Shown here piece after piece: positions 1,722 through 17,795 of a stretch of DNA of 64,000 bases. The notes beneath the pieces are model-generated. The model was given only the letters and a program-made list of their open reading frames with translations, made no database searches and was not told the origin of the DNA. This stretch comes from Actinoallomurus spadix (GTDB taxonomy: Bacteria > Actinomycetota > Actinomycetes > Streptosporangiales > Streptosporangiaceae), in NCBI RefSeq assembly GCF_024055725.1, contig NZ_JAMXMX010000007.1, forward strand, positions 1 to 64,000. The letters are read 5' to 3'. The position numbers and the translations under genes were made by a program. Numbering within the stretch: position 1 is the stretch's first letter; every line of letters begins with the position of its first letter.

Positions 1722-1808
1722 GACGCGATGCTCCTACCCGGACCCGGTACGGAAAAACGCCGGTCAGCGGGGTATTGACGGAGTCTTGCCGCATCGGGGG
1801 CGGTACGG

Positions 1809-1913
1809 TCACATGCGCCAGATCTTGATCTCCCTTCGGAGCGCCGGGAGTTCCCGGACGACCACCGTCACGACACCGGCGACGGCCACGCCGATCAGCA
1901 CCTTCTTGGCCAT
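1809..1913 (-). CDS. 34-aa single-span small protein (DUF6893-like)
   Basis: This short gene encodes 34 residues. It starts MAKKVLIGVAVAG, continues with a hydrophobic valine-rich helix to about residue 19, and ends in a basic amphipathic tail (ELPALRREIKIWRM). The ribosome site GGAAGGAGAGGACAC before ATG is excellent. It lies between the cytochrome b and the 69-aa gene in the hydrogenase operon. It resembles tiny actinobacterial proteins annotated DUF6893; that match is from memory. A single membrane segment suggests a small accessory subunit of the membrane part of the hydrogenase system, which is inference. Confidence 0.75.
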   Translation of the reverse strand: MAKKVLIGVAVAGVVTVVVRELPALRREIKIWRM

Positions 1914-1932
1914 GTGTCCTCTCCTTCCCTCG

Positions 1933-2142
1933 TCAGCCCGGCGGCAGGTTCGGCATGATCTTGAGGATCGCGTCGTGCTTCTTCGGCCGGATCCCCGTCG
2001 AACGGCGGGCGTCGGCGGTGTGGTCCTTGTGGTGGCCGATCTGCCGGCTCATCGACCGCTTGGCGTTGCCCTCGCGGATGCCCCGTACGTGGGAGGGAGT
2101 GTCGATCTTCACGTGCGGCTTACCGACCCGGATGCGGCCCAT
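1933..2142 (-). CDS. 69-aa conserved hydrogenase-operon protein
   Basis: A small, basic, proline- and histidine-containing soluble protein of 69 residues, starting MGRIRVGKPHVK and ending KIMPNLPPG. ATG at 2142 has GAGGAGG at good spacing and overlaps the end of the DUF5947 gene by 23 bases, so translation is probably coupled. It has no cysteines or membrane segment. I recall similar short proteins beside group 1h hydrogenases, but no function is known to me. Its place between the DUF5947 and cytochrome b genes suggests an accessory or assembly role. Confidence 0.75.
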   Translation of the reverse strand: MGRIRVGKPHVKIDTPSHVRGIREGNAKRSMSRQIGHHKDHTADARRSTGIRPKKHDAILKIMPNLPPG

Positions 2143-2851
2143 GGCGCCTCCTCAGTTCGTCGAAGAATCGCTCGATCTCGGTCCACACGACCTCGCCGCC
2201 CGACATCCCGCGCCAGTGGCGGCAGACGATCGCGACGAGCCGGTGGCAGTCGTCGACGGGGACGAGCCACGCCTCCGAACGCCCCCGGGCGGTGTTGACG
2301 AGCAGCGCCTCCACCTCAGCCTTCAGGTCCGCCAGCCCGGCGGTGTCCCGTACGGCCGACTCCCACGCCGCCGGGTCGACCTCCCACCGGGTGGCGCCCG
2401 CCGGGCTCGGGTAGTGCGCGTCGACGCGTCCGTCCGACCGCCGTACGAAGAACGCCAGCCCGACGGGAACGCCCAGTGACGCCGGGGAGAACGCCGGGAG
2501 GCGGACCCGCCGGTCGGGGATCAGCCGGTAGCGCCCCTCCGCGGCCTCGTCGCGCTCGAACAGGACCGAGCAGGCGCGGCAGACGCACCGCGGCTCCCGC
2601 GTCCGCAGGTCCAGCAGGTGGCGGTGCTCCTGCGGGGCCGAGTGCGCGCACAGCTCGCACAGCGCCTGGGAACGCCCGTCCGCCGTCGCCCGGTGGATGA
2701 CGCGCCGCAGGGCGCCCGAGGCTCCCCGCGGTCTCTTCGCCTCCGGGCCCGTCACGTCGTCCGCCTCCGGGCCCGTCATGGCGTCCGCCTCCGGGCCCGT
2801 CATGGCGTCCGCCTCCGGGCCCGTCATGGCGTCCGCCTCCGGGCCCGTCAT
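2120..2851 (-). CDS. DUF5947 family protein with repeated N-terminus
   Basis: The protein has 243 residues. Residues 1-40 are five near-identical copies of an octapeptide (MTGPEADA-type). The rest matches the DUF5947 family found in actinobacterial hydrogenase clusters. A Cys pair near the start of the domain (CELCAH) and a second pair (CVCRAC) suggest a metal-binding site. ATG at 2851 overlaps the stop of the NifU-like gene (ATGA). Because each repeat carries its own in-frame ATG, four internal starts exist and the true N-terminus is uncertain. The function is unknown; operon context suggests hydrogenase assembly or electron transfer. Confidence 0.85.
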   Translation of the reverse strand: MTGPEADAMTGPEADAMTGPEADAMTGPEADDVTGPEAKRPRGASGALRRVIHRATADGRSQALCELCAHSAPQEHRHLLDLRTREPRCVCRACSVLFERDEAAEGRYRLIPDRRVRLPAFSPASLGVPVGLAFFVRRSDGRVDAHYPSPAGATRWEVDPAAWESAVRDTAGLADLKAEVEALLVNTARGRSEAWLVPVDDCHRLVAIVCRHWRGMSGGEVVWTEIERFFDELRRRHGPHPGR

Positions 2852-2858
2852 GGCGTCC
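2739..2858. repeat. Five tandem 24-bp repeats at a gene junction
   Basis: Five consecutive 24-base units occur at 2739, 2763, 2787, 2811 and 2835. Units 2-5 are identical and unit 1 differs by a few bases. Each of units 2-5 includes the string GTCATGGC, which on the minus strand is an ATG start. The last unit also contains the overlapping stop codon of the NifU-like gene. The unit is a multiple of three, so copy-number change would keep the frame and alter only the octapeptide count and number of starts. Confidence 0.97.
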
Positions 2859-3441
2859 GGCTCCCGGGGCGGGCGGACGCGGCCGGCCGGCGCAGCAGCG
2901 ACTCGACCGGGATCACCGCCGGGGCCGGCCGCGCGGCCGGGGCGGGGCTGACCTCGACCCGGCGCAGCTCGGGCGCCATCGTGAGCACCGACTCGGCGAG
3001 CGCGCGCTCGACCGAGGCGGCCGACGACGCGCAGCCACCGCCACCCGACCAGCGCAGGCGGGCGACGCCGTCCGCGATCCCGGTCAGCTCGACCGTCTCA
3101 CCGCGGGGCCGGAGCGCCTCCCGTACGTCGTCGAGGGCCCGCGCCACGCGCTCCTCGACCGGCTGCGGGTGCAGGCCGTGCAGGACGAGCAGGTGGTGCA
3201 GCAGTTCGTCCCGCGCCGGTGCCGTGGACAGCTCCGGCACCCCGCCGACCAGGGCCATCAGGCGGGCGAGGGCGGTGCCGTACACCTCGGTGAGGGCCTC
3301 GACCGCGTGGCGCGCGGTCTCGGCGTCGTCCCCGGTGGCCCGTTCGAGGCGTTCCAGGAGCACGTCGAGGCGCATGAGCCGGTCCTGGACCTCCTCCTCC
3401 GGCAGGCCGGCGGCGGGCCGGTCGGCCGGCCGGTCAGCCAT
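2848..3441 (-). CDS. NifU C-terminal-domain-like protein
   Basis: A 197-aa protein. An alpha-helical N-terminal part (about 1-95) is followed by a NifU C-terminal-like domain (about 100-165). NifU domains normally bind a cluster through CxxC; here the matching segment reads GGGGCASSAAS, so only one of the two cysteines is present. It overlaps the large-subunit gene by 8 bases and is followed by DUF5947. An Fe-S delivery or electron-transfer role for the hydrogenase is plausible, but the missing cysteine argues for a changed cluster mode or a scaffold-only role. Confidence 0.8.
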   Translation of the reverse strand: MADRPADRPAAGLPEEEVQDRLMRLDVLLERLERATGDDAETARHAVEALTEVYGTALARLMALVGGVPELSTAPARDELLHHLLVLHGLHPQPVEERVARALDDVREALRPRGETVELTGIADGVARLRWSGGGGCASSAASVERALAESVLTMAPELRRVEVSPAPAARPAPAVIPVESLLRRPAASARPGSRTP

Positions 3442-5230
3442 GGGACGCCCCGAACGTCGGCGAGTGCAGCTTCTTCAGCACGTTGCCCTTGCCGAGGTAC
3501 ATGTGGACCCCGCACGGCAGGCACGGGTCGAAGCTGCGGACCGCCCGCATGATGTCCACGCCCTTGAAGTCGTCCGGGCCGTTCTCCTCGAAGATCGGCA
3601 TGTCCTGGACGGCGTCCTCGTACGGGCCGGGGACGCCGTGGACGTCGCGGGGACTGGCGTTCCACGGCGTCGGCGGGTACGGATGGTAGTTCGCGATCTT
3701 CTTGTCCTTGATGACGAGGTGGTGGGACAGCACGCCGCGCACCGCCTCGTGGAACCCGCAGCCGATGCCCTCGTCCGGGACCTCGAAGTCCTGGAACACC
3801 TTCATGTCCCCGGCGCGCATCCGCCCCATCGCGCGTTCGAGGAAGTACAGCGACATCGCCGCGGAGTAGGCGATGAAGTACGCGCGGGCGCGGTCCCGTT
3901 CGATCGCGTTGGACCACTTCGGGATCCGCCACTCCAGCGTCGTCTCCGGGAGCTTCTCGCTGCGCGGCAGGCTTATCCGCACGCTCGACCCGGTCGCCTT
4001 GACGTACGGGGTGTCGACCAGCCCGGCGAGCGCCGTGGCGTACAGGCGGGCGAACGGCCCGCCACCGGTGTCGAGGGCCAGGAGCTCGCCGGTGCGCTTG
4101 TCGAACCAGCGAGGGCTCATCACCCAGCTGTACTTGTCCTCGAAGTCGCGTTTCTGCGGCACCGGGATCGTCGTCTGGTTCCACGGGTGCCGGATGTCGA
4201 CCGGGTTGCCCAGCGGGTCGTGGGTGACGAACGGCTCCTCGTTCACCCAGTCCTCGTAGTAGGAGCTGCCGAGCAGGATGCGGATACCGAGATTGATGTC
4301 GACGAGGTCCGTCGTGACCAGCTCACCGTCCACGACGACGCCCGGGGTGACGTGCATCGCGCGGCCCCAGCGGCTCATGTTCTCGTACCGGTAGTCGCAG
4401 ACGTCCGGGTTCTGCCAGGCGCCCCAGCAGCCGAGGAGGACACGCCTGCGCCCGACCTCCTCGTAGCCGGGCAGCGCCTCGTAGAAGAAGTCGAAGACGT
4501 CGTCGTTCATCGCGACGGCCTTCTTCACGAAGTCGAGGATCGAGACGAGCCGGCTCAGGTAGTCGGTGAACAGGGTCGGCTCGGGCATCGTCCCGACACC
4601 GCCCGGATACAGCGTCGAGGGGTGGACGTGCCGCCCCTCCATCTTGCAGAACATCTCCCGCGTGACCCGGCTGACCCGCAGGGCGTTCTTGTACACCTCG
4701 CCCTCGAACGGGTTGTACGCCTCCATGATGTCGGCGATCGTGCGGTACCCGTGGATCTCCGCGTGCGGCGCGTCGGTCCGCCGCGCCCGCTGCAGCACGC
4801 TCGGGTTCGTGGCCTTGACCATCGCCTCGCAGAAGTCGACGAAGCAGAGATTGTCCTGGTAGATCGTGTGGTCGAACATGTACTCGGCCGCCTCGCCGAG
4901 ATTGATGATGTCCTCACCGAGCGGCGGCGTCTTGATGCCGTACGCCATGTTCTGCGCGTACACCGAGCAGGTCGTGTGGTTGTCCCCGCAGATGCCGCAG
5001 ATCCGGCTCGTGATGAAGCCCGCGTCCCGCGGGTCCTTGCCCTTCATGAACACCGAGTAGCCGCGGAACAGCGACGACGTGGCATGGCACTCCGCCACCC
5101 GCCGGTTCGCGAAATCGATCTTCGTGTAGATGCCGAGATTGCCGATGATCCGCGTGATCGGATCCCAGGCCATCTCGACGAGCTGCTCACCGGCGCCGCG
5201 TTTCTCCCGCGTCCGTTCGGTCACTGCCAT
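3434..5230 (-). CDS. hhyL: Group 1h [NiFe]-hydrogenase large subunit
   Basis: This 598-aa catalytic subunit carries the active-site motifs RICGICGDNH (Cys78, Cys81) and DPCLPCGVH (Cys570, Cys573, His576). Twenty-two residues follow the final His, the usual peptide removed by the maturation protease. Sequence and motifs match the actinobacterial high-affinity group 1h (formerly group 5) type, which oxidises atmospheric H2. The open frame extends to 5623, but ATG 5230 has AAGGAG upstream and gives the normal N-terminus; the extra length runs over the small-subunit gene. There is no signal peptide. Confidence 0.97.
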   Translation of the reverse strand: MAVTERTREKRGAGEQLVEMAWDPITRIIGNLGIYTKIDFANRRVAECHATSSLFRGYSVFMKGKDPRDAGFITSRICGICGDNHTTCSVYAQNMAYGIKTPPLGEDIINLGEAAEYMFDHTIYQDNLCFVDFCEAMVKATNPSVLQRARRTDAPHAEIHGYRTIADIMEAYNPFEGEVYKNALRVSRVTREMFCKMEGRHVHPSTLYPGGVGTMPEPTLFTDYLSRLVSILDFVKKAVAMNDDVFDFFYEALPGYEEVGRRRVLLGCWGAWQNPDVCDYRYENMSRWGRAMHVTPGVVVDGELVTTDLVDINLGIRILLGSSYYEDWVNEEPFVTHDPLGNPVDIRHPWNQTTIPVPQKRDFEDKYSWVMSPRWFDKRTGELLALDTGGGPFARLYATALAGLVDTPYVKATGSSVRISLPRSEKLPETTLEWRIPKWSNAIERDRARAYFIAYSAAMSLYFLERAMGRMRAGDMKVFQDFEVPDEGIGCGFHEAVRGVLSHHLVIKDKKIANYHPYPPTPWNASPRDVHGVPGPYEDAVQDMPIFEENGPDDFKGVDIMRAVRSFDPCLPCGVHMYLGKGNVLKKLHSPTFGASHG

Positions 5231-5304
5231 GGTCGTCGGTCTCCTTCGAGGTCCGGGCCGGCGTAGGCCTCCGGGCCGGTGGGCCGGTCTGGGCCCGTCC
5301 GGGG

Positions 5305-6393
5305 TCAGGGACGCCAGCGCGGGTTGTAGCCGCTGGTCAGTTCGGGTCTGTTGTGGTGCCACTTCGGCTCGGTGTTGAGCGCCTGGTTCGTGAAGCCCCG
5401 CATCCGGCGGATGAACATCCCGTACGGCTTGGCCAGCGCCGACGACAGCGACCCGCCCGGTGGCTCGTCCATGAACGGCATGAACTTGTCCGGGAAGCCG
5501 GGCATCGTGCAGCCGATGCAGATGCCCCCGACGTTCGGGCAGCCGCCGACGCCGCCCATCCAGCCGCGCTTGGGCACGTCGCAGTTGACGACCGGCCCCC
5601 AGCAGCCGATCTTCACCTGGCACTTCGGCGAGTTGTAGTCCTTGGCGAAGTCCGCCTGCTCGTAGTACCCGGCCCGGTCACAGCCCTCATGGACGGTCTT
5701 GCCGAACAGCCACTGCGGGCGCAGCAGCTCGTCCAGCGGAGGCGGCGGCGCGCCCCCGGCGGCGTGGTACAGCACCCAGGTCAGCGTCTCCATGAAGTTG
5801 TCGGGCTGGATCGGGCAGCCGGGGACGTTCACGATCGGCAGCCCGGCGGTCGACCGGAAGTCCCAGCCGAGGTAGTCGGCCAGGCCCATGCAGCCCGTCG
5901 GGTTGCCGGCCATCGCGTGGATCCCGCCGTACGTCGCGCAGGTCCCCGCCGCGACCACCGCCCACGCCTTCGGCGCGAGACGGTCCAGCCACCAGTTCAG
6001 CGTCAGCGGCTCACCGGTCTCCGGGTCGTTGCCGAAGGACGTCCAGTACCCGTCGCCCTCGATGATGTTCTGGTTGGGGATGGAACCCTCGATCACGAGG
6101 ATGAAGGGCTCCAGCTCCCCGGCGGCCGCCGCGCGGAACGGCGCCAGGAACTGCTCGCCGCCCTGCGCGGGCGACAGCACCTTGTTGTGCAGGGTGACCC
6201 GCGGCAGCCCGGGAATGAGACCGAGCACCACATCCTCGATCGGCGGCTGCCCGGCGGCGGTCATCGCGACCGTGTCGCCGTCGCAGCTCATGCCCTCGGA
6301 GATCCACAGGATGTCGATGTGCTCGAAGCCCTTCCGCTCCTGACCGGTCGTGGGCTGCTCGGCGGCGTGCGGGAATCCGGTCTCGACGCTCAT
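5305..6393 (-). CDS. hhyS: Group 1h [NiFe]-hydrogenase small subunit
   Basis: This 362-aa Fe-S subunit passes electrons from the NiFe site. There is no twin-arginine signal, as in other group 1h enzymes. The first proximal-cluster motif reads SCDGD, with Cys37 and Asp40 where most hydrogenases have CxxC. This matches the three-Cys, one-Asp proximal cluster reported for actinobacterial-type hydrogenases. Further cysteines lie in GTCATYGG, PGCPIQ, EGCDRAG, KCQVKIGCWG and GGICIGCTMPG. ATG 6393 overlaps the upstream stop (ATGA) and has AGGAGG. It precedes hhyL by 74 bases. Confidence 0.97.
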   Translation of the reverse strand: MSVETGFPHAAEQPTTGQERKGFEHIDILWISEGMSCDGDTVAMTAAGQPPIEDVVLGLIPGLPRVTLHNKVLSPAQGGEQFLAPFRAAAAGELEPFILVIEGSIPNQNIIEGDGYWTSFGNDPETGEPLTLNWWLDRLAPKAWAVVAAGTCATYGGIHAMAGNPTGCMGLADYLGWDFRSTAGLPIVNVPGCPIQPDNFMETLTWVLYHAAGGAPPPPLDELLRPQWLFGKTVHEGCDRAGYYEQADFAKDYNSPKCQVKIGCWGPVVNCDVPKRGWMGGVGGCPNVGGICIGCTMPGFPDKFMPFMDEPPGGSLSSALAKPYGMFIRRMRGFTNQALNTEPKWHHNRPELTSGYNPRWRP

Positions 6394-6938
6394 GTGCGGG
6401 GCCTCCTCTGCAGCCGGTCGCGGACCCGGTCGTACACCGCGGCGACCGGTGCGGCCATCGCCAGCGCGGGCGGTTCGTTCGGCGCGTGCGGGTGCGGCCG
6501 GGTGGGCGCCGCGCGCTTGCCCTTCCTCAGCTGCTCGCCGAGGTCGCCGAGCGCCTCCGGGCCGAGGGCCTCCCGTAGCCGCGGGAAGAACTCGCCCTCC
6601 TCCTCCTGCACGTGGTGCTCGACCTCGCGCCGCAGCTCGGCGACCAGGTCGCCCTCCAGCCGGTCACCGGCCGACAGCCGGTCCAGACTCGCGAGGATCC
6701 TCTTCAGCCCCATGTGCTCGCTCAGGTGTTCGTCGACCTCGCCGGCCATCTCGGGGATCACCTTCTTGGCCAGCGGGTAGACGAGCAGCTCCTCCAGCGA
6801 CGCGTGCTTCGACAGCTCGCGGATGAGGATCTCCACGACCCCCCGCCGCTGTACGGCCGAGGCCGCCGTCTCGTAGTCGCGGAACATCTGCTCCACGATC
6901 CGGTGATCGTGCTCGAGCAGTTCGGTCCCGTCCATCAT
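6390..6938 (-). CDS. Hemerythrin-like (HHE) domain protein
   Basis: A 182-aa protein with a four-helix hemerythrin domain over about residues 1-130. It shows the expected His/Glu pattern (LLEHDHRIVEQMF, LSKHASLEELLVYP, VDEHLSEHMGL, EVEHHVQEEEGEFFP), which can bind a diiron site. The C-terminal 45 residues are basic and proline-rich. ATG 6938 overlaps the hypA stop and a second ATG follows at once. Its position directly before hhyS and its overlap with it suggest O2 sensing or scavenging, or metal handling, for the hydrogenase; this is inference. Confidence 0.88.
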   Translation of the reverse strand: MMDGTELLEHDHRIVEQMFRDYETAASAVQRRGVVEILIRELSKHASLEELLVYPLAKKVIPEMAGEVDEHLSEHMGLKRILASLDRLSAGDRLEGDLVAELRREVEHHVQEEEGEFFPRLREALGPEALGDLGEQLRKGKRAAPTRPHPHAPNEPPALAMAAPVAAVYDRVRDRLQRRPRT

Positions 6939-7294
6939 CACGAGCTCCCTTCCCGCGCCGTGTCGAACGCGATGGCCTCCAGCACGACCTCCTCGGCGCC
7001 GGTCGCGTCGACGTCGACGCCACCGCACCGCGGGCACGCGACCAGCAGGCGCGGGTCGGCGGCGTCGGAACGCGCGCCGCAGTCGCGGCACCGCACCGAC
7101 GGCGGCCGGGCGACCACCTCGACGTTCGCCCCCTCGACGACCGTCCCGGCCGCGGCCAGCCGCAGACCCTGGTCGATCACGCCCGCGTCGACCGGGTGCC
7201 CGGTGACCCGGACCCGCATACTCGTCACGCGATGCCCACCGGCGCGGCGTACGGCCGCCTCGACGATCGCGTCGCACAGTCCCATCTCATGCAT
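6938..7294 (-). CDS. hypA: Hydrogenase nickel insertion protein HypA
   Basis: A 118-aa protein close to the usual HypA length. It begins MHEMGL, whose His2 binds nickel. A zinc site is formed by CRDC and CPRC separated by 15 residues. HypA works with HypB to insert nickel into the large subunit. The start at 7294 is chosen because of MHE; longer frames add an unlikely basic extension. It overlaps the protease gene by 8 bases. HypB is not in this window. Confidence 0.93.
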   Translation of the reverse strand: MHEMGLCDAIVEAAVRRAGGHRVTSMRVRVTGHPVDAGVIDQGLRLAAAGTVVEGANVEVVARPPSVRCRDCGARSDAADPRLLVACPRCGGVDVDATGAEEVVLEAIAFDTAREGSS

Positions 7295-7805
7295 CGGCGG
7301 GCCGCCTCTCCGTCTGCCAGGTCTTCGCGGCCTCGTCACGGGCCAGCGTGGTCACCAGGGACACCGCGTCGTCCAGCGCGGCGCGCACCGGCCCGGACAG
7401 CTCCATCCGCTCGTCGACGACCGCCGGACGGCAGCCCACGACGAGGACACGGTCGATCCGCCCGCCGAGATTCCGGAGCAGCGCCAGTACGGCCTCCGGG
7501 TTCATGCCGTGCCCGTCGAGCGCCGGCGGGGCCGCCGGCTCCGGCCTCGGATCGACCTCCAGGACGGCGAGCGTTCCCGGGGGCCCGTCGAGCGGTACGG
7601 CATCGACCATGATCAAGGTCTCGTGGCGGCCGTCGAGCAGCTCGTACGCGAGGTGAACGCCCCGGATCCCGTAGTCGGCCACGTCCACCGTCGGCGGGAG
7701 CGCGGCCGGATCGACGCGGCGGACCACCTCGACACCGAAACCGTCATCGCCGAGGAAGACATTGCCGATGCCCGCCACGAGCACCCGGCGGCACGGCCCG
7801 CTCAC
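7287..7805 (-). CDS. Hydrogenase maturation endopeptidase (HyaD/HupD family)
   Basis: A 172-aa peptidase that removes the C-terminal peptide of the nickel-loaded large subunit. The N-terminal GIGNVFLGDDGFG motif is present, with Asp where HybD has the nickel-binding Glu. The second and third ligands are the Asp in MVDAVPLD and the His in DGHGMNPE. The start is GTG at 7805, overlapping the upstream stop (GTGA). Position between the 536-aa gene and hypA fits a dedicated protease for HhyL. Confidence 0.93.
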   Translation of the reverse strand: MSGPCRRVLVAGIGNVFLGDDGFGVEVVRRVDPAALPPTVDVADYGIRGVHLAYELLDGRHETLIMVDAVPLDGPPGTLAVLEVDPRPEPAAPPALDGHGMNPEAVLALLRNLGGRIDRVLVVGCRPAVVDERMELSGPVRAALDDAVSLVTTLARDEAAKTWQTERRPADA

Positions 7806-9412
7806 CGCCCCTCCCCGCCGTCCCCGGAGTTCCCAGGACCCCCGGGACCGCCGGGACCCTCGGGGCCGCCGGAGCCCCCGGAAGCCTCGGAACTCCCGGA
7901 AGCCCCGGAGACCCCGAAAGCTTCGGAGCCGCCGGGGTCCCCGGCGTTGTCGTCGAGCGGCTCGACCTCGGCGGGGGAGAAGTACCGGAACCGCCCGTAC
8001 CAGCGGTCGAGCCCCGCCCCGGGATCACCCTCCAGCGTGACGGCCAGGTGCTGGGAGCCGTCGACGTCCAGGAGTACGGCCTCCACCCGGCCGGTCCGGC
8101 CCGCCAGGAACATGTCCTGCGGGTCACCGCCCTCGCGCGGCAGCAGACGGACCCGCGAACCCTTGGCGACGCGGCGGCCGGCGACCGTGACGGCGTCGCT
8201 GCCGGGCGGCAGTTCCGCGTCGTCCGGCGGCGTCCACCGGGACGGCCGCGGGTCGCCCGCGACCGTCGCCGAAGGAAGTGGCTTGAGTGAGCGGATGGCG
8301 CCGTGCAGGCGGGACAGCACCTCCGGCGGCATCGCGTCGACCCGGTCGATGATGGCGGCGGCGCGGGGATCGGTCGCGCGGGCCTCCCGTTTTTCGGCGT
8401 CCGTGAGCGTGAGCGTCCGCAGCGAGAGGATCTCGTCGATCTCGGTGGCGTCGTTCAGGTCGCCGGGACTCTCCGGAGCGACCCGAGGGTGGTCGTAGAG
8501 GATGATCGGCGAGGACAGGAGCAGATCCCGGGTGCCGTGCGGACCCGCGAGCACGGGAAAGGTGCGCACGTTCGCGCACGCCTTCGCCTCCGCCTCGGCC
8601 CACTGCGGCGGGTCGAGCAGTGAGACGAACGACGCGTCCCGCCCCGCGTAGATCGTATGGACGGCGATCAGAGATCGCCGCAGCGCCTCGGCGCGGGGCA
8701 CGCCCACGGGGGTCGTACGGTCGGCGTTCTCGACGCGGACGCGCAGCCGGATGAGCCGGGACCGGCCGGGGCAGCGGGCGGCGGAGACCGTCACCGACGC
8801 CTCCACCGGCCAGAACCGGACCGTTACCCGCCCCACCGGACGTCCGTCCTCGTCCCGGAGCGTCTCGACGTCCGAGCCACCGGGCGCCCGGAACGCGAAC
8901 CGCCGTTCACCGGCCAGCGCCTCCCCGAGAACGAACCGCAGGTCGAACTCCCGAGGAATCGCCTGATCGAACCCGCTCCCGCTCCCGCTCTCGCCCCCGG
9001 TCCCGCTCTCGGAGCTGGTTCGGGAACGGTCCGCAGAGCCGATCCCGGAGCCGGTCGCCGAGCTGATCGTGTCGGCGGGGCGGCGGGCGTTGTCCGTGGC
9101 GCGTTCTTCGACGGACCGGCGCAGCAGCTGCAGGAACCGAAGGCGGCACTGCACGACGGACTCCTCGCCCGCCTGCAGCAGGCACACGGTCCGCTGCCAC
9201 CAGCCCTCGGCGGACCCGGCCAGGCCCTCGTCGTCCGCGCCGCGCGCCTCGGTCCAGGCCCGCGGCGTCAGCACGCCGAACTGCCAGCGGACCTGGTTCT
9301 TCGCCGACGAGCGGCGGTACGGGTACAGCAGATAGCCCTCGTAGAGGATCGCGTCGGCGACCGCCAGGGCCCGATCGAAGGCGGTGCCGGTGGTGACCGG
9401 CTCAGCTGCCAT
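7802..9412 (-). CDS. Conserved hydrogenase-operon protein, 536 aa, unknown function
   Basis: First gene of the operon, with AGGAGG before ATG 9412. The N-terminal part (LAVADAILYEGYLLYPYR, QVRWQFGVLTP) is of a type I associate with hhy clusters. A serine/glycine-rich low-complexity insert lies near residues 115-145. A beta-rich segment near 420-490 (GSRVRLLP, GRTGRVEAVLLD, RYFSPAEVEPLD) precedes a Gly/Ser/Pro-rich tail of about 45 residues encoded by repetitive DNA. There is no membrane segment and no obvious catalytic motif. The function is not known; a maturation or scaffold role is inferred from context only. Confidence 0.85.
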   Translation of the reverse strand: MAAEPVTTGTAFDRALAVADAILYEGYLLYPYRRSSAKNQVRWQFGVLTPRAWTEARGADDEGLAGSAEGWWQRTVCLLQAGEESVVQCRLRFLQLLRRSVEERATDNARRPADTISSATGSGIGSADRSRTSSESGTGGESGSGSGFDQAIPREFDLRFVLGEALAGERRFAFRAPGGSDVETLRDEDGRPVGRVTVRFWPVEASVTVSAARCPGRSRLIRLRVRVENADRTTPVGVPRAEALRRSLIAVHTIYAGRDASFVSLLDPPQWAEAEAKACANVRTFPVLAGPHGTRDLLLSSPIILYDHPRVAPESPGDLNDATEIDEILSLRTLTLTDAEKREARATDPRAAAIIDRVDAMPPEVLSRLHGAIRSLKPLPSATVAGDPRPSRWTPPDDAELPPGSDAVTVAGRRVAKGSRVRLLPREGGDPQDMFLAGRTGRVEAVLLDVDGSQHLAVTLEGDPGAGLDRWYGRFRYFSPAEVEPLDDNAGDPGGSEAFGVSGASGSSEASGGSGGPEGPGGPGGPGNSGDGGEGR

Positions 9413-9695
9413 GATCGCTATCCCTCCTGCGCCGGAGCGCGAGCCCGGACCTTCCCCGCCGGAAGGCGGGCCTTACCGGTATAGGCCACGATCGCCACGT
9501 TCGGTAAGTGACCGACTCCTCTAGGTGGCGTGGTCCGTTAGGGCTCGAGGTGACGATGCGCTGCCGCGTCAGGCCATAACGGCGGCGTCCTTCACCTGGG
9601 TCGATGGCGGCAGGGGTGCGGTGGTGATCGCATGGGTACACGAGGTGAGAGTGTGCGTCGTCACCTGCGGCGATGAGGGTGAGCGGAGGTGCGGC
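9413..9695. promoter_or_regulatory. Divergent control region between hydrogenase operon and PadR gene
   Basis: This 283-bp region separates the hydrogenase operon (minus) from the PadR gene (plus). It contains a near-palindrome at 9469-9487, GGCCT-TACCGGTA-T-AGGCC, about 60 bases upstream of the 536-aa gene, and a smaller CCTTCC/GGAAGG hairpin at 9450-9466. The palindrome is a candidate operator, possibly for the adjacent PadR protein. No clear -35/-10 pair could be assigned. Confidence 0.45.
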
Positions 9696-10139
9696 ATGGC
9701 GGTTTCACGGCCGGATCCCCTCGGTTCGCGGTCCGTCGGCGAGCCGCGTAACTTCCTGCAGTGCTGCCTGCTCCTGCTGCTGCGGGAACGGCCCGCGCAC
9801 GGCTATGAGCTGTTCGAGCGGCTGAAGCCCTTCGGTCTCGCGGAGGGCGACCCGGGGACCCTCTACCGCAGGCTGCGCGCCCTCGAACGCCAGGGGATGC
9901 TGTGTTCGCGCTGGGAGCCGTCGGAGGCGGGACCGCGGCGGCGTACGTACCACCTCACCGAGTGCGGGGAGGAGCTCCTCGGCGTCTGGGCCGGCGTGCT
10001 CGCCGAGACCCGCTCGCTCCTCGACTACTACCTGGGGCGGCACGCGGCGGTCTCGGGGGCGGTTGAGGCGGCGCCGGCCGAGGCGGGAAGGAACGCGGTG
10101 GGCTCGGTGCCGGCGGAGCACGGGCGGCGGGCGCGGTGA
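9696..10139 (+). CDS. PadR family transcriptional regulator
   Basis: A 147-aa regulator. Residues about 15-100 form the PadR winged helix: NFLQCCLLLLLRERPAHGYE, GTLYRRLRALERQGML, and the wing PRRRTYHLTECGEELL. The last 45 residues are a loose Ala/Gly-rich tail. ATG 9696 has GGAGG at good spacing; the longer open frame from 9525 is not used. It sits between the hydrogenase operon and the convergent hypE. It is likely to control hydrogenase expression, perhaps through the palindrome at 9469-9487; this is inference. Confidence 0.88.
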   Translation: MAVSRPDPLGSRSVGEPRNFLQCCLLLLLRERPAHGYELFERLKPFGLAEGDPGTLYRRLRALERQGMLCSRWEPSEAGPRRRTYHLTECGEELLGVWAGVLAETRSLLDYYLGRHAAVSGAVEAAPAEAGRNAVGSVPAEHGRRAR

Positions 10140-10163
10140 CGAGGCTTCGCGGGTAAGGGTGTC

Positions 10164-11246
10164 TCAGCAGATCCGGGGGAGTGGGTCGCCGACGAGGAGG
10201 TCGATGATCCGGGTGCCGCCGAACGCCGTGTTGAGCAGCACGAGGCCCTCGGGGTCCGCGGCGACCCTTCCGATCAGCGCCGCGCCGGCACCGAGGGGGT
10301 GAGCGCGCAGCGCCGCGAGTGCGGCGTCGGCGTCGGTGCCGTCCACGATCGCGACCATGCGTCCCTCGCAGGCGACGTACAGCGGGTCGATGCCGAGGAG
10401 CTCGCCCGCGCCGGCGACCTCCGGCCGGACCGGCAGGGCCGCCTCGTCGACGACGATGGCCACCTCGGACGCCGTGGCGATCTCGGCCAGTACCGTCGCG
10501 ACACCGCCGCGGGTCGCGTCCCGCATCACGCGGGTGCCGGGGGCCGCCTTCAGCAGGAGTGCGCAGAGTTCGTGCAGGGGGGCGGTGTCGGAGGCCAGGT
10601 CCGCGTCGATGTCGAGTTCGCCGCGGGCGAGCATCACGGTGATGCCGTGGTCACCGATCGGTCCGGACACCAGGACCGCGTCCCCGGGGCGTACGTTCTC
10701 TGGGGACAGCTCGACGTCGGCGGTGAGGACCCCGAGGCCGGCCGTGGTGATGTAGCAGCCGTCGGCTCGTCCCCGCTGCACGACCTTCGTGTCGCCGGCC
10801 ACCACCTGGACGCCGGCCCGGGCCGCGGCCCGGGCCATCGAGTCGACGACGCGGCGGAGGTCGTCGACGGGCATGCCCTCTTCCAGGACGAAGCCGGCGG
10901 ACAGGTACAGGGGCCGCGCGCCGCAGACCGCCAGGTCGTTCACCGTGCCGTTCACCGCGAGGTCGCCGATGTCGCCGCCGGGGAAGAAGAGCGGGGAGAC
11001 CACGAACGAGTCGGTGGTGAAGACCAGGCGGGCGCCGCCGGCGGTCACGGTCGCGCCGTCCGTCATGGCCTCGAGGAGCGGATTGCGGAACGCCTCCAGG
11101 AACACCGCGTCGACCAGCGTGTTCGTCGCCTTGCCGCCCGCGCCGTGCGCCAGTGTGACGCGTTCCTCCCGGAGCCGGGGCCTGCGCCGCCGTACCCGCT
11201 CGATGCGGTCCAGGACCTGTCGTTCCCTGCTCTCTTCGAGGCTCAT
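10164..11246 (-). CDS. hypE: Hydrogenase maturation factor HypE
   Basis: A 360-aa protein of the PurM/HypE family. It dehydrates the thiocarbamoyl group on its own C-terminal cysteine to make the cyanide ligands of the NiFe site. It ends PRIC, so Cys360 is present. N-terminal LAHGAGGKATN and DGATVTAGGARLVFTTDSFV match HypE. The related SelD (selenophosphate synthetase) has the same fold, but the C-terminal PRIC identifies HypE. It is the third gene of hypCDE. Confidence 0.96.
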   Translation of the reverse strand: MSLEESRERQVLDRIERVRRRRPRLREERVTLAHGAGGKATNTLVDAVFLEAFRNPLLEAMTDGATVTAGGARLVFTTDSFVVSPLFFPGGDIGDLAVNGTVNDLAVCGARPLYLSAGFVLEEGMPVDDLRRVVDSMARAAARAGVQVVAGDTKVVQRGRADGCYITTAGLGVLTADVELSPENVRPGDAVLVSGPIGDHGITVMLARGELDIDADLASDTAPLHELCALLLKAAPGTRVMRDATRGGVATVLAEIATASEVAIVVDEAALPVRPEVAGAGELLGIDPLYVACEGRMVAIVDGTDADAALAALRAHPLGAGAALIGRVAADPEGLVLLNTAFGGTRIIDLLVGDPLPRIC

Positions 11247-11274
11247 GGCCGGCTCGTCTCCCGTACGCGCTTCC

Positions 11275-12402
11275 TCACGTGCGGCTCGCCTCCCGTACGC
11301 GCTCCCGGCTGAACCGGCCGAAGGCGTAGTACGCCGCGCACGCGCCCTCGGAGGAGACCATGCAGGTGCCGATGGGGGTCTCCGGTGTGCAGGCGGTGCC
11401 GAACACCTTGCACTCCCATGGCCGCAGCACGCCCTTCAGCACCTCGCCGCACTGGCAGGCCTTCGGGTCGGCGACGCGGACGCCCGGCAGGTCGAAGATC
11501 CGTTCGGCGTCGAACCGGGCGTACGCCTCCTTTATCCGGAGCGCGGAGTGGGAGATGAACCCGAGGCCGCGCCACTCGAAGTACGGGCGGGGCTCCATCA
11601 CCTCGCCGATGACGCGCAGGGCCTTCGGGTTGCCGTCCCACGGCACGACCCGCGAGTACTGGTTCTCGACCTGCGCCCGGCCCTCGGCGAGCTGGCGCAG
11701 GAGCAGGTGGACCGACTGGAGGATGTCCAGCGGTTCGAACCCGGCGCACACGAGCGGCCTGCCGTGGTCGCGGGCGATGAACTCGTACGGCCGGCAGCCG
11801 ATCACCGCCGAGACGTGCCCGGGGCCGAGGAAGCCGTCGAGGCGCAGGTCGGGGGAGTCGAGGATCGCCTTGATCGCCGGGATGATCATGACGTGGTTGC
11901 AGAAGACCGCGAAGTTGTCCACGCCGTCCGCGGCGGCGCGCAGCACGGTCATCGCGGTGGACGGCGCGGTCGTCTCGAAGCCGATCGCCATGAACACCAC
12001 CCGCTTGCCGGGCTCCGCACGCGCGATCTTCAGGGCGTCGAGCGGGGAGTAGACCATCCGGATGTCCGCACCGGCCGCCTTCGCGTCGAAGAACGACCCC
12101 TGCCCGCCGGGGACGCGCATCATGTCACCGAACGACGTCATGATCACGTCGGGCTGCCGGGCGATCGCGATCGCGTCGTCGACCCGGCCCATCGGGATGA
12201 CGCAGACGGGGCAGCCCGGTCCGTGGACGAGCCGGACCGCCTCGGGCAGGAAGTCCTCGATGCCGTGCTTGTAGATCGTGTGGGTGTGACCGCCGCAGAC
12301 CTCCATGAAGCGGTACGACCGCCCGGGCTCGCACAGCGCGGCGATGCGGGCGGCCAGCGCCCGCGCCTTGCCCGCGTCGCGGAACTCATCGACGAAGCGC
12401 AT
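11275..12402 (-). CDS. hypD: Hydrogenase maturation factor HypD
   Basis: A 375-aa Fe-S protein that with HypC assembles the Fe(CN)2CO unit. It shows the conserved MEVCGGHTH, GPGCPVCVIP, GFETTAP and PGHVSA motifs, and C-terminal cysteines in KACQCGEVL, WECKVFG and TACTPETPIGTCMVS. Length matches the family. ATG 12402 has AGGAGG. It lies 10 bases after hypC and 28 bases before hypE. Confidence 0.97.
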   Translation of the reverse strand: MRFVDEFRDAGKARALAARIAALCEPGRSYRFMEVCGGHTHTIYKHGIEDFLPEAVRLVHGPGCPVCVIPMGRVDDAIAIARQPDVIMTSFGDMMRVPGGQGSFFDAKAAGADIRMVYSPLDALKIARAEPGKRVVFMAIGFETTAPSTAMTVLRAAADGVDNFAVFCNHVMIIPAIKAILDSPDLRLDGFLGPGHVSAVIGCRPYEFIARDHGRPLVCAGFEPLDILQSVHLLLRQLAEGRAQVENQYSRVVPWDGNPKALRVIGEVMEPRPYFEWRGLGFISHSALRIKEAYARFDAERIFDLPGVRVADPKACQCGEVLKGVLRPWECKVFGTACTPETPIGTCMVSSEGACAAYYAFGRFSRERVREASRT

Positions 12403-12412
12403 CGGATCCCTC

Positions 12413-12682
12413 CTACGGGCTCGACTCTCGGAAGGCGGCGATCTCGTCGTCGTACGCCTGCCCCATGTCCTCGAGGAACTGCAGGAGGGCCTGGGCCTCC
12501 GACTCGGAGATCTTGGAGAGCGCGAAGCCCACGTGGACGAGGACCCAGTCCCCGGGCCGCAGGTCCTCTCCTTCGAGCAGGCCGATGTTGATCCGCCGCC
12601 GGACTCCGCTCACGTCCACCGTCGCCAGGTCCGGAGGGTCGTCGCCGAACGCGACGAGTTCTCCAGGGATCCCCAGGCACAT
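12413..12682 (-). CDS. hypC: Hydrogenase maturation chaperone HypC
   Basis: An 89-aa chaperone beginning MCLGIPGEL, with the essential Cys2. The beta-barrel segment RPGDWVLVHVGFALSKI is typical. HypC carries the iron unit with HypD and passes it to the large subunit. ATG 12682 has GGGAG upstream. It is the first gene of hypCDE, transcribed away from the beta-propeller/thioredoxin gene across a 209-bp gap. Confidence 0.96.
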   Translation of the reverse strand: MCLGIPGELVAFGDDPPDLATVDVSGVRRRINIGLLEGEDLRPGDWVLVHVGFALSKISESEAQALLQFLEDMGQAYDDEIAAFRESSP

Positions 12683-12891: not shown

Positions 12892-14298
12892 ATGGGCCCG
12901 GTAGAGTCGGCGGCGGCGGAGGACGGGGCCGGCGGGCTCGATCGTGTCCACCGTGTCCTGGCGCAGCCACGCGTCGGCATGGGGCCCGAGGCGGTCGCGG
13001 TCGACGTGCGGCGCCGGCGGGCGTTCGTGGCGTGCTCACGCAGCGACGCCGTGACCGCCGTCGACCTCGTCCGGATGACGCCCGTCTGGCGGGCGGGCGT
13101 CGGGCGGGAGCCCATACCGATCGTCTTCGACGCCCCGACCGGGCGGTTGTTCACCGCGGACGCACGGTCCGACATCGTCAGCGTCCTGGACGCGGGCACG
13201 GGGGAACCGCTCGCGCGGATCGCCGTGGGTGCCTATCCGGCGGGCCTGGGGTACCACCCGCGGCTCCGGCGGATCTTCAGCGGTGACACGGCCGCGGCCA
13301 CGATCACCGTGGTCGACGCCGACCGCCTCGCACCGATCGGGGTCATTCCCGCCGGGCTCGGCGCCGGCAGCATCGCGATCGACCGGCGGCGCGACCGCGG
13401 GTACTGCGCGAACTTCATGGCCGCGTCCCTCACCGTCTTCGACCCGGTGACGCTGCGCCCGCTGGACCGGATTCCGGTGGGGCGCGGGCCGTGCAAGGTC
13501 GTCGCCGACCCGGTGGCCGACCGGCTGTACGTCGCGAACTCCCTGGAGAACACGGTCCTGTGGCTCTCGCTCGCCGACGGGCGGGTCGGCGGGTCGTTCC
13601 CGGTGGAACGTGCTCCGGTGGGCCTGGCGGTCTCCCGGGACGGCCGTCACGTGTACGTGTGCAACCGGGGGGCCGGCACCGTCAGTGTGCTCGACGTGCG
13701 CGCCGGCGCCGAGAGCCACCGGATCCGGGTCGGGTACGGACCGGGGGACTGTGTCATCGATCCCGCGACGGGCCGCCTGCTCGTGTCGAACGCGGGCAGC
13801 GGCACGCTCACGATCGTGGACCGGCCGTGGCTGCCCGGGCCGGAGGCGCCGGCGGGGCACCCGGCCGTCGGGCGGCTCCTGCCCGGCTTCGCGCTGCCGG
13901 ACCTGCGCACCGGGCGGATCCGCACGACCCGGGAGTGGGCGGAGAAGAAGTACGTGATCAATTTCTTCGCCAGCTGGTGAGGCCCCTGTAACGCGGAGGC
14001 GCCGGTCCTGGAGGCACTGCGCCGCCGTACCGCCCGGTCGGGGCTGGAGATCATATCGATCAACGTGTGGGAGAGCCGGGACGCCGCCCGTGAGGCCCGC
14101 CACTTCGCGGAGGTATGGGACGTCCGGGGGACGATCCTGCTCGACGAGACCGGCGCGTACGCCGCCCGGCTCGGCGTCCGCGGGGTCCCGACGAATGTGC
14201 TCGTCGACGAGCGCGGTGTCGTCCGCGCGGTGGGCGTCACCGCCCCGGCCGACCTCGACGCCGCCGTGGCCCGGCGCCTCGCCGGGCCACGGCGATGA
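12892..14298 (+). CDS. Beta-propeller/thioredoxin fusion with in-frame UGA (candidate selenoprotein)
   Basis: Residues about 20-330 are NHL/YVTN-type propeller repeats (for example RRRAFVACSRSDAVTAVDL, DRLYVANSLENTV, GTVSVLDV). From about 333 the protein enters a TlpA-like thioredoxin domain (GFALPDLRTGRI, KKYVINFFASW). TGA 13978-13980 is codon 363. The same frame continues as GPCNAEAPVLE with no further stop until 14296-14298. It includes the cis-proline RGVPTN (Pro433), 70 residues after codon 363. The active site would therefore be U-G-P-C in place of C-G-P-C, with Cys366 resolving. NHL-repeat genes are known beside group 1h hydrogenases. If TGA is read as stop, the product is 362 aa and ends just before its active site. 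I favour selenocysteine; a single TGC-to-TGA nonsense change is the alternative. No sel genes are in the window. Confidence 0.75.
13998..14023 (+). promoter_or_regulatory. Candidate bacterial SECIS hairpin after the UGA
   Basis: Just downstream of TGA 13978-13980 the RNA can fold as GGCGC (13998-14002), a bulged C (14003), GGU (14004-14006), a 9-base loop containing GG (14007-14015), ACU (14016-14018) and GCGCC (14019-14023). The loop starts 27 bases after the UGA, within the distance usual for bacterial SECIS elements. The first loop base is C rather than G. Hairpins are common in DNA this GC-rich, so this is suggestive only. Confidence 0.4.
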
Positions 14299-16062: not shown

Positions 16063-16944
16063 ATGATCTTCATCATCGGGCTGGCCGCGGCCGGTCTTCT
16101 GGGGCTCGGCTTCGTGGCCCAGCAGCACGCGGCGTACCGAGAGCCGCTCGGCCGCATGCTGCACCCGTCCCTTCTGCTGGACCTCATCCACAAACCGCTC
16201 TGGCTCGCCGGCCTCGCCGCGATGGTGGGCGGCCAGATCCTCGGAGCGGTCGCACTGTCCGGAGCGGACGTGTCCAGGGTCGAGCCGCTGCTGGCGACCA
16301 ACCTCGTGTTCGCCCTCGTCATCGGGCGCGTCGTCTGCAAGGAGAACCTGCACTGGAACGAATGGCTCGGCGGCCTCATGGCATCGGGAGGTATCGCGCT
16401 GTTCCTGGTGCTCGGCAGCCCCCGGGGCGAGCACCCCACCGGCCCGGAGTCCGGCCGTTGGCTGGCCGCCGTTGGGATCGTGTTCGTCGTGCTGATCCTC
16501 GTATGGATCGGACGGCGCTCCCCGCTCCAGACCCGGGCGATGCTGCTGGCCGCCGCGGCCGGCATCCTCTTCGGCCTGCAGGACGCCGTGACCCGGGGAC
16601 TGCTGATCAGGATCGGTCACGGGCTCGGAGCGATCCTCGCGAGCTGGCAGCCGTACGCCCTGGTCGTCGTCGCGATCTGCGGCCTCCTGCTGGCCCAGTC
16701 CGCCTTCGACGCCGCGCCGCTCCGCGTCTCCCTGCCCGCGGCGACCGCGGCGGAGCCGATCACGGGGATCCTGCTCGGGGTCGTGGTGTTCACCGAGCGG
16801 CTGCGGCTGGGGGCCGGGCCGCTGGTCGGAGAGATCCTCGGGCTGGCCATGATGGTCGCCGGGATCATCATCCTCGGGCGCTCGCCGTACCTCGCCAAAC
16901 GGGAGGACGACGTCGCCGGGTGCGCGGAGGCGAGACTGCCGTGA
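16063..16944 (+). CDS. EamA/DMT-type transporter, first of a pair
   Basis: A 293-aa integral membrane protein with about nine or ten hydrophobic helices in two repeated halves, as in drug/metabolite transporters. It starts MIFIIGLAAAGLLGLGF. ATG 16063 follows a GGGGG-rich site. Its stop overlaps the GTG of the next gene (GTGA), so the two related proteins are co-translated and may form a heterodimer. The substrate is unknown. Confidence 0.85.
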   Translation: MIFIIGLAAAGLLGLGFVAQQHAAYREPLGRMLHPSLLLDLIHKPLWLAGLAAMVGGQILGAVALSGADVSRVEPLLATNLVFALVIGRVVCKENLHWNEWLGGLMASGGIALFLVLGSPRGEHPTGPESGRWLAAVGIVFVVLILVWIGRRSPLQTRAMLLAAAAGILFGLQDAVTRGLLIRIGHGLGAILASWQPYALVVVAICGLLLAQSAFDAAPLRVSLPAATAAEPITGILLGVVVFTERLRLGAGPLVGEILGLAMMVAGIIILGRSPYLAKREDDVAGCAEARLP

Positions 16945-17795
16945 TCGCCGTCGTGTGCGCACTGCTCGCCGCGGCGAGCAACGCCCTGGCGTCGGTACTG
17001 CAGCGCCGCGCCGCGCGCTCGGCCCCTGATGAGTTCGCCTTCCGCCCGGCCCTGCTGTGGGCGCTGATCCGCCGCCCGGTGTGGCTCGGCGGCATCGGGG
17101 CCCTCATCGCGGGATTCCTCCTGCAGGCCCTGGCACTGTCGAACGGCGGGCTGGCCCTCGTCCAGCCGCTCCTGGTCGCGGAGCTGCCGCTGACCATGAT
17201 CTTCCTCGCCTGTCTGTCACGGGTCCACCTCGACCGGCGCACCTGGCTCGCGGTCGGCGCGATGACGGCGGGTCTGGCCGCGTTCCTCGGCGCGGCGTCA
17301 CCGGCGCCGGGGCGGCGTTCCCCGAGCGTGCTGATCTGGGTGATCGCCGCGATCGTGACGGTCGGCACCATCGTCGGGATCGCCGTGCTGTCGAGGTCGA
17401 CCTCGGGCGCGGGCCGGGCGGCGCTGCTGGGCGTGACCGCCGGAATCGGGTTTGCCTTCACCGCGACGTTCATGAAGGCGACCACCAACCTGGCGGACAA
17501 GGGCATGCCCGTCCTGCTGACGTCCTGGGAGCCGTACGCGATGATCGCGGCCGGCTTCGGCAGCCTGTTCCTCCTGCAGAACGCCCTGCAGAGCGGCACT
17601 CTGGTCGCCGCCCAGCCGGCGCTGACGATCTCCGATCCGGTGGCCAGCGTCCTGTACGGGATCATGCTGTTCGGAGAGAGCGTCCGGTCGGGGGCCTGGG
17701 TGGTCGCCGAAGCGGCGGGTTTCGCGCTGATCTTCTACGGCACCCTCCGGCTCAGCCAGTCCCCCATCGTCCAGACGCAGGCGGAGACCGCCTGA
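16941..17795 (+). CDS. EamA/DMT-type transporter, second of a pair
   Basis: A 284-aa membrane protein similar in layout to its upstream neighbour, with paired halves, about nine helices, and SWEPYAMIAAG against SWQPYALVVVA in the partner. GTG 16941 overlaps the previous stop. The pairing of two unequal EamA proteins in one operon suggests a two-component exporter or a membrane sensor pair. Substrate not predictable. Confidence 0.85.
   Translation: MIAVVCALLAAASNALASVLQRRAARSAPDEFAFRPALLWALIRRPVWLGGIGALIAGFLLQALALSNGGLALVQPLLVAELPLTMIFLACLSRVHLDRRTWLAVGAMTAGLAAFLGAASPAPGRRSPSVLIWVIAAIVTVGTIVGIAVLSRSTSGAGRAALLGVTAGIGFAFTATFMKATTNLADKGMPVLLTSWEPYAMIAAGFGSLFLLQNALQSGTLVAAQPALTISDPVASVLYGIMLFGESVRSGAWVVAEAAGFALIFYGTLRLSQSPIVQTQAETA

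Follow-up and report, generated by a model that had tools for sequence, protein, structure and literature searches.

An in-frame TGA at the redox site of a propeller–thioredoxin gene of Actinoallomurus spadix, read as a probable selenocysteine codon

The window, the whole 64,000-nucleotide stretch of Actinoallomurus spadix DNA that was analysed, contains a gene at 12892–14298 on the forward strand in which a beta-propeller is followed by a thioredoxin domain whose first active-site cysteine position is occupied by an in-frame TGA. Insertion of selenocysteine (Sec) at this codon, number 363, is nearly certain, judging from the conservation of the codon and the presence of the Sec apparatus, and, as its family affiliation suggests, the protein most likely acts in the cytoplasm as a selenol-dependent disulfide reductase that the propeller directs to its target. 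The explanation as a whole, namely a true selenoprotein gene decoded by means of an mRNA hairpin and SelB, with a product that is likely a cytoplasmic selenol-based reductase docking through its propeller, is considered highly probable.

Reading frame and domain architecture

The frame starts with ATG at 12892 and continues for 362 sense codons to the TGA at 13978–13980, after which 105 more sense codons lead to a terminal TGA at 14296–14298. The succession described in the initial annotation, from a propeller frame through FASW, the TGA and GPCNAEAPVLE to a thioredoxin domain and a stop at 14298, was found to be correct on re-reading. Its placement of the TGA at exactly the first Cys position of WCGPC, with codon 363 flanked as FASW-(TGA)-GPCNAEAPVLE, was borne out by the frame and by a Pfam Redoxin/AhpC-TSA/thioredoxin match that spans the codon (residues 326–451, 57 bits against a cut-off of 26.6, with C entered for Sec). 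The following features were assigned to the gene.

12892..14298, forward strand: putative selenoprotein gene of 468 residues including Sec363, consisting of propeller, linker and thioredoxin (frame; TGA in 20/20 distinct full-length homologues)
12949..13827, forward strand: seven-bladed YVTN/YncE-type beta-propeller, approximately residues 20–312 (PF21783, TIGR02276, AlphaFold2 with pLDDT mostly >90, Foldseek)
13033..13035, forward strand: Cys48 of the propeller, invariant in 18/18 aligned sequences
13492..13494, forward strand: Cys201 of the propeller, invariant in 18/18
13864..14286, forward strand: TlpA/ResA-type thioredoxin, approximately residues 325–465 (Pfam Redoxin, AhpC-TSA and Thioredoxin; PDB 3gl3, 3hdc and ResA; model)
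13978..13980, forward strand: TGA read as Sec363, first residue of the UGPC redox motif (18/18 aligned sequences plus L062 and L077)
14188..14190, forward strand: Pro433 of GVPTN at the thioredoxin cis-proline position, invariant in 18/18

Upstream of the TGA, the Pfam YNCE-like propeller model scored 46.6 (cut-off 27.1) and the NCBIfam model of YVTN repeats, TIGR02276, 97.5 bits (cut-off 27.85), while NHL reached 22 bits against 20 with no single stretch passing. The "NHL propeller" of the initial annotation is thus retained as a propeller and reassigned to the YVTN/YncE type, the NHL match being marginal. A structure was predicted with AlphaFold2 from the 18-row alignment, with Cys substituted at position 363 (pLDDT 87.1, pTM 0.86), and the blade count of seven was read from the strands of this model and from structural matches. 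The best PDB matches returned by Foldseek were the YVTN propeller 1l0q, hydrazine synthase beta (5c2v) and YncE, and many other propellers matched too. In addition to the two invariant cysteines, Cys257 and Cys287 of the propeller co-occur in the same 13 of 18 sequences. Pro433 is presumably cis, as in thioredoxins generally. When the N-terminus was read by eye, no signal peptide or anchor was visible.

According to a crude composition script, TGA terminates 47 of the 52 frames of the window, the 12892–14298 frame included among the 47, and a general reassignment of the code is therefore absent. No ATG, GTG or TTG was found between the TGA at 13978–13980 and codon 392, although CTG codons occur; codon 392, the earliest of these starts, lies beyond the redox active site, which makes a separate thioredoxin gene with its own active site unlikely. 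In the AlphaFold2 model the first thioredoxin strand, together with FASW, is encoded upstream of the TGA.

Conservation of codon 363, the downstream hairpin and the selenocysteine apparatus

Homologues were sought with a pattern scan of the contigs of one genome per species (84,980 species), using an alignment of four sequences as the query and the patterns EWAEKKY and RDR[GA]YCAN; relatives without either peptide would escape it. Both patterns lie outside the TGA codon, so the scan did not select for TGA. Of the 18 loci obtained, 17 were full-length, and all 17 carry TGG-TGA-GGN at the site; the remaining locus (L060) contains a thioredoxin end only, with a TlpA-like match to residues 303–459, and was dropped before the counts. 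Three genome samples were also searched at E 1e-20 or 1e-30, and from each genome a handful of top candidates was scored. In the host's family (297 genomes) matches were found in 16 genomes, comprising four full-length homologues already counted and 12 others that were mostly propeller only; G166, G138 and G038 were regarded as the genomes of L043, L044 and L045 and entered the counts once. The class sample (394 genomes) gave matches in 15, namely the host, a new full-length homologue in G395 (L062) and 13 propeller-only matches, and the phylum sample (396 genomes) gave matches in nine, namely the host, a new full-length homologue in G958 (L077) and seven propeller-only matches. Both new homologues carry TGA.

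Codon 363 was inspected across these homologues, as had been suggested in the initial annotation: TGA stands at the same codon in 20/20 distinct full-length sequences, the window counted, and the Cys codon in relatives that would point to a mutation or sequencing error was encountered neither in the pattern scan nor among the best few candidates of the 297, 394 and 396 genomes. The 17 aligned relatives are 46–88% identical to the window protein and derive from Actinoallomurus, Microtetraspora, Planosporangium, Streptomyces and several uncultured lineages. The domain matches of the thioredoxin part are to Cys-type thioredoxin families. Two further candidates were set aside: one in G121 (L030), whose propeller match extends to residue 342 and a TGA, lacks a FASW-like thioredoxin motif, and a putative second TGA thioredoxin on contig C70 of the host genome proved to be an ordinary ResA-like gene with WCAPC, its own stop being TGA.

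The dN/dS ratio after the TGA ranged from 0.08 to 0.39 in 13/13 pairs and was lower after than before the TGA in 10 and higher after it in three, the pairs being non-independent. Low values beyond the TGA make translation of the thioredoxin domain very probable.

A bSECIS element was sought downstream of the TGA, another check proposed initially, and two features were recorded there.

13981..14046, forward strand: codons 364–385, the strongest excess of synonymous codon conservation in the gene (codon identity against expectation)
13993..14028, forward strand: probable bSECIS hairpin, its stem formed by alignment columns 22–36 with 43–57 (RNAalifold, pair counts, synonymous recoding)

Codon identity over codons 364–386 was 0.78 against 0.49 expected (21 informative codons), compared with 0.59 against 0.54 in the rest of the gene (264 codons; Mann-Whitney p 4.8e-6), and the eight top 12-codon sliding windows, from 285 informative codons, all fell within codons 366–385. 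The RNAalifold hairpin has the stem GCGG.GGCGC/GCGCC.CCGU. In a first pair count based on 18 sequences (16 distinct) and 14 pairs, 87.5% of cells paired; the covariation score was reached by 5/500 shuffles and the other measures by 64/500. A second count, extended by L062 and L077 to 18 distinct rows, was based on 13 pairs, pair 34–45 being left out as unpaired in 12/16; here 91.9% of cells paired, against 33–62% when the pairing was slid, and shuffles reached every measure in 5/500. Pair 26–53 was unpaired in 13/18 rows, and two-sided changes occurred in 3/13 pairs, in one sequence each, so covariation is little.

Nine core pairs had a mean probability of 0.81–1.00 in 18/18 sequences, compared with averages of 0.03–0.35 in synonymous recodings, and the real core value was matched by 0–14 of 300 recodings across the 18 sequences (14 for L046). 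Because the core had been derived from these same 18 sequences, the two left-out sequences were tested; L062 and L077 each gave a core probability of 0.89, matched by 1/300 and 21/300 recodings, respectively. Free energy alone was rejected as a test for bSECIS, since in most of the sequences it is ordinary for such GC-rich DNA and only the particular fold is unusual: the window hairpin had a z of 0.66, the eight sequences tested spanned 0.66 to −4.12, and 259/300 synonymous recodings of the window hairpin were at least as stable. Published constraints on loop, stem, spacing and a G in the loop, as given in the part of PMC13188914 used here, were applied without a control set; the best structure meets them in 9/18 sequences and a structure within 4 kcal in 17/18, L057 failing altogether. 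The hairpin at 13993–14028, with its core in 18/18 and in the two left-out sequences, is on this evidence a probable bSECIS.

A search of the host genome for selA, selB, selC and selD recovered all four; the absence of every sel gene, which the initial annotation had named as a refutation, is thereby excluded. Contig C3 contains tRNA-Sec (76 bits against a gathering score of 47; anticodon tca according to ARAGORN), SelD (388.2 bits, cut-off 125), SelA (340 bits with Pfam, 420.3 with TIGR00474), SelB (291.9 bits, cut-off 242.25) and a TGA-interrupted formate dehydrogenase, FdhA, whose part after the TGA matches NF041513 with 1606.8 bits. These genes (selA, selB, selD, tRNA-Sec and the TGA-containing fdhA) are clustered within about 28 kb, at approximately 124600–152046 of C3 (L018, L014, L015), and a gene beside the cluster reads by eye as fdhD. 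Sel matches under the cut-off were set aside. As to a fusion of propeller and thioredoxin with Sec replacing the first active-site Cys, the initial proposal is accordingly supported, both by TGA in 20/20 homologues and by the sel genes.

In the genomes of the relatives, SelA was found in 18/19 (16/17 plus 2/2 new ones) and tRNA-Sec in the same 18/19. SelA by itself says little, since it occurs in 177/297 genomes of the host's family. A SelB family search in the relatives (17/17 matching, 7/17 above the cut-off) was discarded, all 14 control genomes matching too; other elongation factors score high in this search, and SelA and tRNA-Sec were used instead. The L045 genome (G299, Microtetraspora malaysiensis) contains two SelA and two tRNA-Sec genes. 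In the genome of Streptomyces mexicanus Marseille-Q0842 (L049), which carries the TGA gene, neither SelA nor tRNA-Sec was found, reflecting either loss or an assembly gap. The L049 frame is open on both sides of the TGA. Before the TGA, three pairs of L049 with other Streptomyces gave dN/dS of 0.33–0.37 and three pairs among the others 0.26–0.31; after it the corresponding values were 0.17–0.26 and 0.19–0.24. Any decay of the L049 gene is therefore slight; the gene is a possible natural example of a stranded selenoprotein gene.

Other readings of the TGA were weighed against Sec insertion. In bacteria tRNA-Trp is known to read through UGA, and readthrough that inserted Cys instead of Sec would restore WCGPC. 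Plain readthrough with Cys or Trp is nevertheless very improbable, as tRNA-Sec, SelA, SelB and SelD are all present, a conserved hairpin would be unexpected, and UxxC is a usual Sec site in the consulted portion of the PMC13188914 table. A real stop, with the propeller made alone and the rest either a separate gene or a relic that is not translated, would correspond to the default reading of TGA, which ends 47/52 window frames; it is given only a very small probability, considering that the starts available before codon 392, past the active site, are CTG only, that the first thioredoxin strand and FASW precede the TGA, and that the frame is kept in 20/20 with selection persisting after the codon. 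A pseudogene, in which a nonsense mutation or sequencing error had altered a normal WCGPC gene, would require the change of one base from TGC or TGT, and S. mexicanus carries the gene with no SelA or tRNA-Sec found there; against it stand TGA in 20/20 distinct full-length homologues with no Cys form found, and purifying selection on both halves. For the window gene this reading is accorded next to no probability, and for the family as a whole the sequences compared already refute it.

Genomic neighbourhood

A hydrogenase cluster occupies 132–12682 on the reverse strand of the window and comprises genes for QcrB-like, DUF5947 and NifU proteins, the large and small subunits, a protease, HypE, HypD and HypC; hypC starts 209 bp from the selenoprotein gene, on the opposite strand. 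The two subunits match hydrogenase models below curated cut-offs, "group 1h" being the label of the earlier reading. Within this cluster, 7802–9412 (reverse strand) encodes a 536-residue protein to which no model of Pfam or NCBIfam matched at E 0.001, and whose match in L043 falls in two separate pieces; a PadR-family regulator lies inside the cluster on the opposite strand (9525–10139, forward), and the QcrB-type cytochrome b gene (132–1721, reverse) forms its edge. In the Streptomyces loci L048, L049, L053 and L058, similar genes start approximately 3.5–4.5 kb downstream of the selenoprotein gene. In these same four loci the hopanoid C-3 methylase HpnR (867 bits in L049) is encoded approximately 6–10 kb downstream, in a block common to all four that also holds an apparent cytochrome oxidase subunit I gene, identified by eye. 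The HpnR/QcrB/cytochrome oxidase block was rejected as a linked partner and read as shared Streptomyces synteny.

Transporter genes were also noted near the selenoprotein gene, two of them in the window.

16063..16944, forward strand: DMT-family transporter gene, a recurrent neighbour (NF038012, 116.6 bits, cut-off 50)
16995..17771, forward strand: second DMT-family match, tandem to the first, with coordinates giving the extent of the match (tblastn, 44% identity to the L051 DMT protein)

DMT-family genes occur near 11 of the 18 loci, in varied arrangements, and the DMT proteins tested pass NF038012 in 3/3 cases; the loci without one are L044, L045 and all five scan loci from uncultured lineages, three of which are on contigs <10 kb. 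An MFS gene is near five of the 18 loci, with a fragment in L050, and immediately precedes the selenoprotein gene, in the same orientation, in L043, L051 and L052; no NCBIfam cut-off was reached by the MFS proteins. Nine neighbour queries compared with 98 kb of other host DNA, a small control, gave no match. The contig is shorter than 10 kb for four of the 18 loci, and synteny is partly shared among the eight from Streptomyces.

Two partnerships were considered in light of these neighbours. The initial annotation had linked the protein to hydrogen oxidation, and a protein dedicated to the [NiFe]-hydrogenase (group 1h), serving in maturation or H2 electron transfer, would agree with the adjacent hypC and cluster, with a similar hydrogenase cluster near the gene in L043 (an MFS gene lying between), and with HhyS 5 kb away in Streptomyces NRRL S-340 (L048); an NHL-repeat gene is moreover described in the extended hyp-operon of Nostoc in the part of PMC2408588 used here. 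The link did not extend beyond these loci: hydrogenase genes were within about 10 kb in only 3/18, of which L043 is close kin of the window (88% identical), and none was found at eleven loci with approximately 5–10 kb of flank on each side (L044–L047, L049–L051, L053, L055, L056 and L058). The hydrogenase link is thus local, and a dedicated partnership is improbable. Action together with the DMT and MFS transporters on a metabolite needing selenol-based reduction, for example a disulfide-linked or selenium compound, is a tentative possibility that falls short of an even chance. The recurrence of DMT genes in differing arrangements, the upstream same-strand MFS genes and the lack of matches to the neighbour queries in other host DNA speak for it, whereas the loci without DMT, the partly shared synteny of the eight Streptomyces loci, the small size of the control and the MFS scores under every NCBIfam cut-off speak against it.

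Relation to known families and proposed mechanism

By sequence, the thioredoxin domain resembles TlpA/ResA/DsbE proteins (ResA 1st9; 3gl3, 3hdc) and shares a CxxC-type motif with them. TlpA/ResA-type thioredoxins typically have an export signal or membrane anchor, whereas the window protein has no visible signal or anchor, and it further differs in its Sec for Cys and its N-terminal propeller. The propeller is like YVTN/YncE propellers (archaeal surface layer protein 1l0q, YncE 3vgz, hydrazine synthase beta 5c2v) in fold and YVTN-type repeats, and differs from these structures, which are not known to include a thioredoxin, in being joined to one and in its invariant Cys48 and Cys201. Proteins of the NHLRC2 type also join a thioredoxin-like domain to a propeller, but with the thioredoxin-like domain first, the NHL propeller after it and Cys at the active site; the window protein has the reversed order, and Sec. 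The ResA-like WAxxUGC selenoprotein NF041054 is alike in being ResA-like with Sec, but the motif here is UGPC, not UGC, and its score of 53.1 bits is below the cut-off of 300. None of the NCBIfam selenoprotein models reaches its cut-off on the window protein.

Sec thioredoxin-fold proteins with UxxC (thioredoxin, thiol:disulfide interchange protein and Redoxin family protein) are listed in the 2026 review PMC13188914 and are alike in having Sec for the first Cys of CxxC; in the portion of the review drawn upon, these entries are listed by thioredoxin-type domains, none with a propeller. The propeller fusion is not named in its catalogue of 119 selenoprotein families, the table of which cites families from Haft and Tolstoy 2025, and its main text makes no mention of propeller, NHL, YncE, Streptomyces or Actinobacteria. 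The earlier remark that no described selenoprotein with this domain order was known agrees with the absence from the catalogue. No matching family appeared in the titles and abstracts from literature searches, which in part covered incomplete listings, and novelty was also set against the available parts of deep-Sep (PMC12013277), PMC2398784, PMC5330540, PMC5029168 and PMC2408588. The homologues apparently constitute a new, widespread selenoprotein family of soil actinobacteria, to which the "Redoxin family protein" of the catalogue (PF08534, UxxC, HEU0032618.1) might be related.

The following mechanism is proposed. The mRNA hairpin past UGA363 would bring in SelB and Sec-tRNA-Sec, so that the UGA is decoded as Sec and the thioredoxin domain is completed, giving a product that is probably cytoplasmic in view of the N-terminus. 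As in related thioredoxins, Sec363 of Sec363-Gly-Pro-Cys366 would attack an oxidised S or Se bond of a partner, Cys366 would resolve the Sec-partner bond, and a cellular thiol system would re-reduce the pair. The propeller is a likely docking platform that would give the enzyme one specific client, and the invariant Cys48 and Cys201 may sit at the client site or in an internal relay. Under selenium shortage, translation would be expected to stop at the UGA and yield the 362-residue propeller alone. A more elaborate account, of an obligate Sec family without a Cys form in which propeller cysteines and the Sec thioredoxin make up an internal relay, working with DMT/MFS transporters on an undescribed substrate, and in which selenium switches between full enzyme and bare propeller, is regarded as rather unlikely in its entirety.

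A Streptomyces with selABCD and a Sec formate dehydrogenase has already been published (PMC4498112, in the part used here). According to the section of PMC13188914 consulted, a bacterium often has no selenoprotein other than formate dehydrogenase, which is the other Sec gene of the host seen here. For Streptomyces and its relatives, having a second Sec family that is conserved would be an added reason to retain the Sec apparatus. If the TGA were annotated as a stop, the catalytic domain would be missed. The apparent absence of a Cys form would make the family a good test, in cultured strains, of what Sec can do beyond Cys.
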